From assembly GCA_021741245.1 (NCBI GenBank), contig JAIOYF010000002.1, positions 1 to 64,000 of the forward strand: DNA of 64,000 bases. The letters are read 5' to 3'. The position numbers were made by a program, and so were the translations under genes. Source of the DNA: Paracoccaceae bacterium (GTDB taxonomy: Bacteria > Pseudomonadota > Alphaproteobacteria > Rhodobacterales > Rhodobacteraceae). The notes beneath the pieces are model-generated. The model was given only the letters and a program-made list of their open reading frames with translations, did not search any database and had not been told where the DNA came from. Every line of letters begins with the position of its first letter. The stretch's first letter is position 1. Positions 1 through 3,075 of this stretch are shown here, piece by piece.

Positions 1-78
1 GCGCACCGGGTAGCCCCGATCCTCGACCTGTGCGACCGCATCGCGTTTGAACTCATCTGTGAATTTGTTCGTGGACAT
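1..78 (-). CDS. IS3-family transposase OrfA, N-terminal fragment (runs off window)
   Basis: The minus strand from an ATG at 78 encodes 26 residues starting MSTNKFTDEFKRDAV and ending ...GYPVR at the edge. This matches the start of the helix-turn-helix OrfA of IS3-family elements, which binds the terminal repeats and is normally fused by frameshift to the OrfB integrase. AGGAGG lies 6 bases upstream of the ATG. Only the first part of the HTH region is visible, so whether the full gene is intact is unknown. Confidence 0.65.
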   Translation of the reverse strand, partial: MSTNKFTDEFKRDAVAQVEDRGYPVR

Positions 79-621: not shown

Positions 622-942
622 TCAAGCGGCCTGCTCCCTTGGTGGTGCGCGCGACATCGGTTTTTGCCCGCGGCGGAAGATCTCGATGATCCCCATCGCG
701 CCACCGCAGCAGGGGCATGGTTGGCGCAGGGTGAGTGGGATGATCTCGGCTTCGGAGCCCGACACGGTGGCCTGTTTCTGGGCTTGGAGGCAGAGCAAGG
801 CGCGGATCATCGTGATGTTGGCCTTGCGGGTCGGACTGGCCAGCAGGCCGTTGTGCCGGATGCGGTGGAATCTGTCGGGGAGGACATGGATCAGAAAGCG
901 ACGGATGAACTCGGGCGTGGCCAGGCGCATGACCTTTTGGCG

Positions 943-984
943 CCCTCTCGTGGTTTTGCGGCGCAAACCGCTGCCGGGCAGTGG
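943..984 (-). repeat. Palindromic unit, copy A (42 bp, in frame in the IS91 transposase)
   Basis: On the plus strand it begins CCCTCTC, then has a near-palindrome GGTTTTGC/GCAAACC around GGC, then the small hairpin CTGCCGGGCAG. It adds 14 codons to the transposase between a TKSGA-like and an RQKVM-like segment that are adjacent in the family. It shares order and both hairpins with the copies at 1387 and 2245. Confidence 0.6.
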
Positions 985-1386
985 TGCGCCGGATTTGGTG
1001 CGGTAATCCTTCCATCTGAAGGCGACAGTTTGGACATCGGCGCTGACCAGGCAGGCGTTGGAGATCGCGACGCGGTGGGTGTCTCGGCTCAGATAGGCCA
1101 GAACTGCCTCAGGCCTCTCCAAAGGCCGGCTTGGCATAGACCACCCCCTCGGCCTTCCGGAACTTGGCGAGCCAGGCCTTAAAGGCATCAGCTGCGGCCA
1201 ACCCTTCGAGATCACCGAAGAAGGCCAGTTGCCCGGTCCGGTGCAGTTCCATGAGCCCGTCCAGAAACAGGCGCCTGAACAACCGCGACAGCGCCCGCAC
1301 CTGGAGGAAGAAACCCGTTTTGCAGGCGACCCACTTCGTAGCGTCGGGCGACAGGCCGCCGCCCGGGACAATCATGTGGATGTGCG

Positions 1387-1426
1387 CCCTCTCATGGTTT
1401 GCGATGCAAACCACTGCCGGGTAATA
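1387..1426 (-). repeat. Palindromic unit, copy B (40 bp, frameshifting)
   Basis: On the plus strand it starts CCCTCTCAT, followed by the perfect stem GGTTTGC-GAT-GCAAACC, then ACTGCCGGG and TAATA. It interrupts the transposase between the LTHH and HIHMIVPGGG blocks, which are contiguous in intact relatives. Its length (1 mod 3) accounts for the observed frame change. Confidence 0.65.
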
Positions 1427-2114
1427 GATGATGCGTCAGCGCTGATCCTCAGGTGTGCAGCACACTGGTCATACCGACCCGAGCGCCCATACGCTTGGGA
1501 TCGACGGCGATGGTCGTCACTGTTTCCGCAGACGCCTTGAACAGCAGACCATAGGCGGCCTTCTTGTTCCAAAAGGCGATCTGCGCAATCTCGGCTGGCA
1601 TCGTGAAGACGACGTGGACGTATTCCACCGGCAGCAGGTCCTCGGCACGGGTCTCCATCCAGTCGAGTGCAGCCGGGCCCTGACACTTCGGGCAATGCCG
1701 GTTCTTGCAAGAGTTGTAGGCGATGTGATGGTGGCCGCACTTGGTGCAACCGGCCACGTGCCCGCCGAGCGCCTCGGTTCGGCAGGCTTCAGTCGCTGAC
1801 ATCGCCTTTAGTTGGAACAAGCTGACATGCCCGGCATTGGCCCGCCGCCACGCAGGACCACGGGCGCGGAAGATGTCAGCGATCTCCAGCTTTGGCCAGG
1901 ACAATGACCCCGGGCGTTATTGCATCCCTCGTCGCAGGGTCTCGTCCTGCAACAGCTTCATCTGCTCGAAAGGGCTGACAGTGCTGCGGATGGTCTTTGT
2001 TGCCAAATGGGTGTAGCGCGCGGTGGTGGTCAGCTTGGCGTGGCCAAGCAACACCTGGATCACCCGCACGTCCGTGTTGGCTTCCAGAAGGTGTGTTGCA
2101 AAGCTGTGCCGCAT

Positions 2115-2141
2115 CGCGCCAGAGGCGCGTCTCCAACACGA
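2115..2141 (-). repeat. 27-bp in-frame two-hairpin insertion in the integrase
   Basis: The insertion lies between TPHT and [10 protein letters not shown], which are separated by a single residue in most XerC/D-like proteins. It carries GCGCC-TCT-GGCGC, and ACACG-T-CGTGT spans its edge. It adds nine residues (SCWRRASGA or equivalent) next to the catalytic HxxR. The sequence is unrelated to copies A-C but has the same two-hairpin design. Confidence 0.45.
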
Positions 2142-2244
2142 CGTGTGCGGCGTGGCGGCCTTCTGGATTCCTGCCATGTGCTCGGCTGAGGTGAATGCAT
2201 GGTTCAGTTGTCCGGGCGACAGCGGGCTGATCTTTGGCTTGCCC

Positions 2245-2285
2245 CCCTCTCGGTCCATTGCTGCGCAATGCCCTGCCGGGCAATG
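2245..2285 (-). repeat. Palindromic unit, copy C (41 bp, frameshifting)
   Basis: On the plus strand it starts CCCTCTCGGT, then the stem CATTGC-TGC-GCAATG, then CCTGCCGGGCAATG. The stem sequence differs from copies A and B but stays complementary (compensatory change). It splits the integrase at WLFP|GKPKIS; its length (2 mod 3) explains the frame shift, and deleting it rejoins the reading frame. Confidence 0.65.
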
Positions 2286-3075
2286 GGGAACAACCACCCC
2301 TCGGGGCGCGACTCGCGCCAATAGTCGCGCAACAGATCCAGCAGGCTCGGCGACAACATGGCCTTTCGATCACGCCCGCCCTTGCCGTCATCGACATGGA
2401 TTAGCATCCGATTGCTGTCGATATCTTTGACCCTGAGGTTGCAGACTTCGGATGCACGCAGCCCGGCACCGTAACTGATGCCAAGAGCCGCCCGATATTT
2501 GAGCCCAGGGCCGGGCACGGCGGCCATCAAATCAGCCACCTCCTCGACACTCAGGCTAATCGACAATTTGCGGGGCTTGCGATGAAACTGCATGAAGCGC
2601 TTCATCTCATCACGCCCGCACGTGATCCCGAAGAAGAACCGCAGGGAAATGATGCGCACGTTGAAGGTGCTGGCCGACACGCCGTCCTGTGTCATCTTGA
2701 GGTGATAGGCGCGCAGATCTTCAGGGGTGGCTGTATCAGGCGGCCGCCCGAGGAATGACGCGAAATGCTTCACATTCCGGATGTGCGCTTTTTGCGTCTT
2801 CTCGCACAACCACCGAATATCCATGTCTTCGATCATCCGCTGACGCAGCGGAGTGGTCTTCTCCTCCTTCATGGGAACCTCCTGTCTGACGATGGGAAAG
2901 ACCCCGATCGTCAGCCCAGACCGGGATGCCACAAGGAAAAACTATGAAAGATGTGCCGACCTTGCGATCAGGCTCCAATGCCGTGGAGCGGCTTCGTCCA
3001 TGTCCTCATCGCGGCCCTTCAAGACCATGCCGAAGCGGGGGATGTATGCTTGGGCGATTTGGTGGTGGGCCAAGG

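Follow-up and report, generated by a model that had tools for sequence, protein, structure and literature searches.

The left end of the analysed window, a 64,000-nucleotide stretch of a Paracoccaceae bacterium contig, carries three similar palindromic segments within broken mobile-element genes, raising the question of whether these are ordinary parts of such genes or a very small mobile element that has spread among them. All three copies lie on the plus strand and have a common layout: CCCTCTC, a 21 to 22-nt stem-loop, TGCCGGG, and a 5-nt tail. Copy 1 (943-983, 41 bp) is composed of CCCTCTC at 943-949, the stem-loop at 950-971, TGCCGGG at 972-978, and the tail CAGTG at 979-983. The corresponding parts of copy 2 (1387-1426, 40 bp) are found at 1387-1393, 1394-1414, 1415-1421, and 1422-1426 (TAATA), followed by the target GATG at 1427-1430, while those of copy 3 (2245-2285, 41 bp) occupy 2245-2251, 2252-2273, 2274-2280, and 2281-2285 (CAATG). 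An initial sequence-only reading had located the three copies and assigned the stems GGTTTGC/GCAAACC to two of them and CATTGC/GCAATG to the third, all of which we recovered, but it had extended the first copy to position 984, which belongs to the flank, so that its lengths of 42, 40, and 41 bp become 41, 40, and 41 bp. Each copy was found by both a pattern search and a covariance model. The pattern CCCTCTC-N10-38-CTGCCGGG matched three times in the window versus 0.01 matches expected from shuffles, and the covariance model at E≤1 returned exactly the three copies and no others, the copy at 2245 being one of the 34 training rows of the model. The window had no Rfam match at the gathering threshold. 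The segments are thus confirmed as three members of a family with the layout CCCTCTC - variable stem-loop - TGCCGGG - YARYG. Copies 1 and 2 reside in a decayed IS91-type transposase gene (622..1904, minus strand; Pfam Zn_Tnp_IS91 on 1452-1904) that is homologous to a copy on contig C20 of the same genome, and copy 3 resides in the adjoining, interrupted tyrosine integrase gene (1917..2932, minus strand; Pfam Phage_integrase and SAM-like domains on 2288-2932). Further lesions of the window IS91 copy, as read from the sequence, are a frameshift near 1115-1130 and a separate insert at 2112-2141. Positions 1-75 (minus strand), at the contig edge, read as the beginning of a further orfA, this one IS3-type.

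Comparison of occupied and empty sites set the ends of the element. It had been proposed that each window copy sits exactly where homologous proteins are contiguous. This is the case for the copies at 1387 and 2245, which have gapless empty homologues in the other IS91 copy of the source genome on C20; the 943 site is occupied in both the window and C20 IS91 copies, with related stems and an alignment shifted by one column. The 1387 site is also occupied in genome G383, again with the tail TAATA. Among the loci compared, a gapless empty homologue, defined as one matching at ≥32 of 50 bases across the junction after removal of the segment, was present for 56 of 103 distinct sites. The inserts measured 37 to 45 bp, most frequently 41 bp (22/56), and no target duplication was apparent, with flank matches of 2 to 6 bases at only a few of the 103 sites. 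The base preceding CCCTCTC was C in 49 of 75 cases, and the tail was followed by GAYG, or C[AG]TC on the other strand, at 41 of the 103 sites (27 CATC and 14 CGTC). GAY was found in 33 of the 56 empty homologues versus 36 of the 56 occupied sites, and the whole right 4-mer was common to the occupied and empty versions in 27 of 56. Since these bases are already there in many of the empty homologues, the C[AG]TC tag is part of the target. The tail TAATA occurred only with G at position -1 (5/5 copies, 4 distinct sites), most of its stems being unrelated. Overall, these comparisons show insertion to be precise, free of duplication, and in one orientation relative to a preferred tetranucleotide.

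The large stem proved to be highly variable in sequence. Within 34 distinct 41-bp copies, 97.4% of the 306 cells of the 9-bp stem were paired, with 66 double changes versus 20.6 after shuffling and a covariation score of 0.608 versus ≤0.107 with the partners slid. This alignment, which also served for the covariance model, comprises 34 of the 37 distinct 41-bp copies, as window copy 943-983, L074, and L091 were omitted due to their differing layout. With those three restored, 93.4% of 333 cells were paired, with 71 double changes versus 23.8 shuffled and a score of 0.585 versus ≤0.101 slid; copies of other lengths are in neither alignment, and the covariation figures are somewhat inflated by kinship, as several copies come from the same locus or genome. 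A total of 68 distinct stems was found in 75 sites, with stem-loops of 16 to 29 nt, the shortest and longest of which include some likely chance matches. Stem sequence is thus shown to turn over while pairing persists. The segments had originally been described as two-hairpin units under structural selection. The large stem does covary, whereas the second hairpin (TGCCGGGCA) is merely conserved, having zero double changes and a score equal to that of shuffles, and the CCC/GGG pairing likewise had no double change; covariation supports the large stem only. Similarly, structural selection is evident from the family alignment, but not from the three window copies, of which only 1387-1426 has a folding energy surpassing its shuffles (plus strand; DNA z -3.1, RNA z -2.8), while 943 and 2245 were no better than theirs. 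The 92 distinct stem-loops contained 764 Watson-Crick pairs, 12 G.T, and 21 A.C; in 18 of the 21 A.C mismatches, the 5' arm contributed the A and the 3' arm the C. Because G.T is no commoner than A.C, nothing favors an RNA form. Strand-specific RNA selection was considered and rejected for lack of an excess of G.U over A.C (12 vs 21).

The strict pattern identified 13 copies in the source genome (reversed-pattern control, 1), and the covariance model, which scored 150 of 6073 candidates, returned the same 13 plus one weak match (E 0.69); a few degenerate copies were seen near the others, outside the 13, in loci on contigs C13 and C20. A looser pattern, CCCTCTC-N10-38-TGCCGGGC, matched 219 of 394 family genomes, a count that includes chance matches. 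Its maxima were 31 (G007) and 28 (G067), both with 0 matches in the reversed-pattern control; control matches do occur in other family genomes. At the class level, a strict pattern that overlooks most copies (it finds 3 of the 13 in the source genome) found a match in 3 of 5 genomes from the family but in none of 380 genomes from the rest of the class. Two representative copies matched 97 and 109 public plasmid records. Among the genera listed for these, two Shinella records were the only matches outside of Rhodobacterales, to which we take the other listed genera to belong, while 11 and 10 more genera are left unlisted by name. Phage records yielded no match to one representative copy. A scan with one genome per species found at least 119 stretches, and nearly all of the 80 matches listed carry Rhodobacteraceae names, the exceptions being one Vreelandella (a gammaproteobacterium), two Hyphomicrobiales bins, and one unplaced alphaproteobacterial bin. 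The Vreelandella neptunia copy (L191) lies in a transposase-like gene with an rve_3 domain and suggests either transfer beyond the family or contamination. The hairpin family is almost confined to Rhodobacteraceae. We found no description of this element in the open-licence literature, though one may exist in other papers.

The same element was also encountered at unrelated places. Two stems of G007, GTGCATGTAAACATGCAC and a variant differing from it by one base, each occur between unrelated flanks with an identity of 0.55-0.63, compared with a mean of 0.58 and a maximum of 0.64 for random sequence. Identical stems at unrelated flanks were found in two of six groups tested, the remaining four being copies of one host element or having one flank in common. 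In G134, three IS5 relatives that are 84-86% alike share an element, identical at 41/41 positions, in the same TGATC|GAC site. As their flanking bases differ close to the element on both sides, this site was probably entered repeatedly, the alternative being very short gene conversion. Other recurrent sites are istB before GAYGCCAA in three genera and IS3 TTCTTC in three genera, with a fourth case (G075) identified by eye. Judging from the identical stems at unrelated places and the G134 case, the element is mobile and site-choosing. Together with the empty sites and the many copies, this agrees with the original proposal that a very small palindrome is mobile and spreads within genes. The segments are missing from other homologues, and no single IS family has the motif as a regular component; its hosts span at least nine IS families in addition to integrases. 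A search for right ends gave 51 matches in 20 genomes; of the 30 distinct ones examined, 28 had a left box with ≤1 change and two had one that was further altered. As none was without a recognisable left box, no larger autonomous version was seen.

Among the matches listed from a collection scan, 58 of 82 sites are in or beside transposase or integrase genes. Forty of the 82 are within and 8 are ≤45 bp from reference matches, in a scan that was not gene-selected and whose match thresholds were loose (identity down to 25%), and ten of the other 34, chosen for their transposase-like look, all had transposase-type domains in Pfam. The host families and domains include IS3, IS5-type, IS21, IS66, IS91, mutator/IS256-type, IS1182, IS240-like, and DDE_3. 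All 13 copies in the source genome are in transposase or integrase genes, with hosts assigned by Pfam matches to gene pieces on C11, C20, C22, and for istA on C15, by a Pfam match short of the curated threshold (E 6e-4) for istB on C15, and by protein similarity to relatives on C3 and C13, whose pieces had no Pfam match. One copy lies within an RHS gene. Nine loci of a recurrent conserved repeat were seen (L203, L205, L225, L251, L255, L257, L264, L055, and L074), each with the element at CTGGCC[CA]T|GATG, although the repeat was found via the element and empty copies would be missed. In the plasmid table, which omits pseudogenes, almost no listed match has an annotated gene. No second copy was found within 700 bp at 60 of the 82 listed sites, some of which had shorter flanks. 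The chosen loci provided 95 sites, including some duplicates, of which 73 were in reading frames with a junction-spanning homologue; these homologues are matches among the loci themselves and name the frame, not the family. The single orientation noted among the window copies holds inside the window, but not at these 73 sites, where 32 elements run in the sense and 41 in the antisense direction of the host gene. Element length modulo 3 was 2, 1, and 0 at 35, 23, and 15 sites, respectively.

Genes of this type also harbour two or more other small hairpin inserts, visible as gaps between IS homologues, one starting GAGGAGGRTCAG and one with TCGTGT-GAA-like stems. The latter, a second family of ~30 bp, resembling TCGTGTYGRAGACGCGCCTSYGGCRCGATG and ending in GAYG-type sequence, was observed in the window integrase (2112-2141, minus strand), at L120 618 in the source genome's own IS91 transposase on C20, and at L059 2462 in a repeat of G377, seven mismatches away. 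A third family of ~44 bp, composed of GAGGAGGRTCAG, a variable stem with a GGGG-like loop, and CCCGACGAA, occurs among transposase genes at L120 915 (minus), L122 358 (plus), L147 504, L152 1412 (minus), L035 1858 (minus), and L036 1864 (minus), as well as in L138, L144, and L157, and one near-consensus of it matched 26 plasmid records at a total of 30 places, 16 of these records being Paracoccus. IS-homologue gaps of L120, L121, L073, L142, L091, and L101 point to a possible fourth family, ~33 bp long (GCCATTGGTCCGAG...CAATGGC), for which a pattern scan gave no clear copies. An initial loose pattern for an additional hairpin family returned mostly chance lines. In L185 of G250, a 61-bp insert with GAATTGATCCACAGGATCAATTC lies in an IS91-type (Y2_Tnp) gene.

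Several interrupted ISs were found to have multiplied. In G013 (2 contigs), six IS3-type copies, 99.1-99.8% alike to one of them, each carry the same four elements (38, 40, 38, and 38 bp). When these were removed in silico, open frames of 308 and 100 codons appeared in all six copies, and the 308-codon frame of one copy exceeded the cut-off of an NCBIfam IS3 model. No element-free copy of this IS was found in the genome with a 261-bp probe. G302 (4 contigs) has two copies, 99.67% alike, of an istB gene with three elements (43, 41, and 40 bp) that is otherwise open, and the joined frame matched an NCBIfam IstB model above its cut-off, with no third copy found using a 203-bp probe. G035 has three identical IS5 copies with two elements each, and its element-free relatives are ~73-75% alike over the IS. 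The multiplication of the G013 and G302 lineages despite three to four frame-breaking elements stands against a simple dead-DNA view. Conversely, 21 of 34 host genes among the matches listed had another stop or frameshift within 700 bp, a count that may include other small inserts, and 13 of 34 had none. The codon phase of insertion was initially striking, with phase 0 at 42 of 62 sites (p 2e-8), falling to 37 of 57 versus 27.0 expected from a site matrix (p 0.004). With motif-matched expectations and merged sites, phase 0 was found at 15 of 27 versus 13.1 in the independent collection sample among the matches listed (p 0.29), at 16 of 25 versus 11.1 in the chosen loci (p 0.03), and at 28 of 48 versus 22.1 when pooled (p 0.05). 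Phase 2 was deficient in the pooled motif-matched set (8 of 48 versus 16.4, p 0.003) and stood at 6 of 27 versus 9.3 in the independent sample among the matches listed (p 0.11). The target motif explains most of the phase bias, and we dropped it as a sign of translation-level function. A frame-intactness test using reference proteins from the same loci was circular and was set aside, and ORF length after element removal with one-base offsets was uninformative in this GC-rich DNA.

Of the explanations considered, the one that we regard as probable is that the family consists of non-autonomous mobile DNA hairpins of 37-45 bp that are mobilised in folded, single-stranded form by a trans-acting enzyme. 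This enzyme would cut at C[AG]TC and after the GAGAGGG end, following by analogy the logic of REP and IS200/IS605 elements, the latter of which create no target duplication, as is the case for the new element. Pairing would be selected at every round of movement, and transposase genes would retain copies since such genes are for the most part dispensable, are often in decay, and may ferry hairpins between genomes. No mobilising gene was found: 9 of 12 copy-rich genomes lack Y1 (PF01797) and 6 of 12 lack Y2 (PF04986). With both distributed so patchily, neither is a general mover, and the single-strand route rests on analogy. Counted against this explanation are the non-strict tag (C[AG]TC at only 41 of 103 sites), a tail that covaries with the left flank when the stem does not, the 24 of 82 listed sites without a transposase assignment, seven of which are in the one recurrent repeat, and the pooled phase 2 deficit. 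Genome G377 adds a dispersed ~230-bp repeat (L034, L056-L059), pairs of which are 12-19% diverged, with a near-constant element mid-repeat, a constancy that the model does not predict. It is rather unlikely that the mover is simply a host Y1 (RAYT) or Y2 (IS91) transposase acting upon a REP-like element. IS91 genes are among the hosts, and HUH transposases would fit the lack of target duplication, the one-sided tetranucleotide, and the single hairpin. However, among 12 copy-rich genomes three have the Y1 domain and six have Y2, compared with one of 12 copy-free genomes for either domain, copy-free here meaning only 0 matches of the looser pattern, and the copy-rich G013, G075, and G302 (2-6 contigs) have neither.

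The multiplied ISs bear upon an unlikely but consequential reading, namely that the hairpins are mobile bypass or splice-out elements, which ribosomes would pass over or which would be excised from the message, such that the host transposase would still be made. The six G013 copies with four elements, open frames after removal, and no clean copy found, the two G302 istB copies with three elements in an otherwise open gene, and the phase 2 deficit would all fit, and the ISs would then have stayed active through removal or skipping during expression. Bacteria would then have an equivalent of byps or of programmed internal eliminated sequences, one that occurs in either orientation and across many families of transposase. 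Against this are the other stops and frameshifts in 21 of 34 host genes among the matches listed, the occurrence of elements in both orientations, a phase 0 excess that is not significant in the independent sample and borderline when pooled, and G.U pairs no more frequent than A.C. The interrupted ISs could also have been moved by a helper copy that was lost or not sequenced, and as a lost helper or one on a missing plasmid would explain G013, G302, and G035, we continue to consider it doubtful that ISs with three or four hairpins remain active in this manner. It is still less plausible that the element is RNA-borne, with a small hairpin RNA being reverse-transcribed and inserted at C[AG]TC. 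The tiny uniform size, precise ends, absence of duplication, and spread of one element to related sites would be accommodated, but pairing is nearly strict Watson-Crick with no G.U excess, the window has no Rfam family, and there are many stems with no single master. Host defence, in which cells would seed frame-breaking hairpins into transposase genes to disarm transposons, would account for the strong bias to transposase and integrase genes, but we regard it as very improbable given that the recurrent repeat and one RHS gene also carry elements, the interrupted ISs multiplied nonetheless, and no enzyme is known. Lastly, some sites are occupied in several genomes, as they would be if the segment were a non-mobile, ordinary conserved part of certain ISs; this is refuted by the 56 of 103 sites with gapless empty homologues, and the hosts of at least nine IS families plus integrases speak against it as well.

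The new element amounts to a layer of parasites within insertion sequences. For so small a hairpin, its ends are known exactly, occupied sites can be paired with clean empty ones, and a target tetranucleotide is in hand; with its signs of movement, lack of duplication, and in-target tag, the question of mobilisation is directly testable in culturable roseobacters. CCCTCTC at one end and YARYG at the other do not form inverted repeats, and there is no target duplication, both unlike a MITE. A likeness to Rickettsia palindromic elements had been suggested, and those also are palindromes inside ORFs of an alphaproteobacterial lineage; however, in the sections of the source considered here (PMC10969869) they are ~150 bp, often in frame, and encode peptide, whereas the new element is 37-45 bp and mostly frame-breaking, with only 15 of 73 lengths being a multiple of 3. 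Yeast mitochondrial GC clusters, fungal double-hairpin elements, and sponge hairpin elements, as portrayed in parts of another report (PMC2800124), are tiny repeated hairpins too, some of them genic and thought to be mobile, but they belong to organelle genomes and have no transposase-gene habitat there. The byps of Magnusiomyces mitochondria, in the portion of their description used here (PMC5009743), are likewise short blocks breaking coding frames at many places; they are bypassed in mitochondrial genes, whereas bypass is a conjecture for the new element, with mixed indirect signs, and many of its host genes are decayed. GTAG REPs/RAYT, as covered by sections of a 2013 survey (Di Nocera 2013, PMC3733652), and also IS200/IS605 elements have a hairpin and a tetranucleotide beside one end, as does the new element, which differs from GTAG REPs in having no GTAG and in the absence of Y1 transposase from most of the copy-rich genomes (9/12). 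The nearest known kind is the CGTC-tagged REPs, which, according to the same sections, are common in alphaproteobacteria, "apparently lack a dedicated transposase", and include the Rickettsia families RPE-4 and RPE-6; the mobilisation of these alphaproteobacterial repeats and the enzyme responsible were left open there. Both are small palindromes with a variable stem and no known transposase, and the CGTC (also TGTC or CCTC) at one end of these REPs may correspond to the CATC or CGTC often found next to the YARYG end of the new element, which lies in the target (CATC/CGTC at 41 of 103 sites, CGTC alone at 14, and 44 including TGTC/CCTC). As described in these sections, CGTC-tagged REPs have an 8-9 bp stem right after the tag, with complementary AT in the first two positions, and a CCA-like tail, whereas the new element has 12 conserved bases (CAYTGCCCGGCA-like) between tag and stem and ends with GAGAGGG rather than CCA. 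They are also mainly extragenic, at gene ends, and often head-to-head dimers, while the new element occupies transposase genes and dimers are not the rule. Because spacer, tail, and habitat all differ, we do not class the element as a CGTC-tagged REP.
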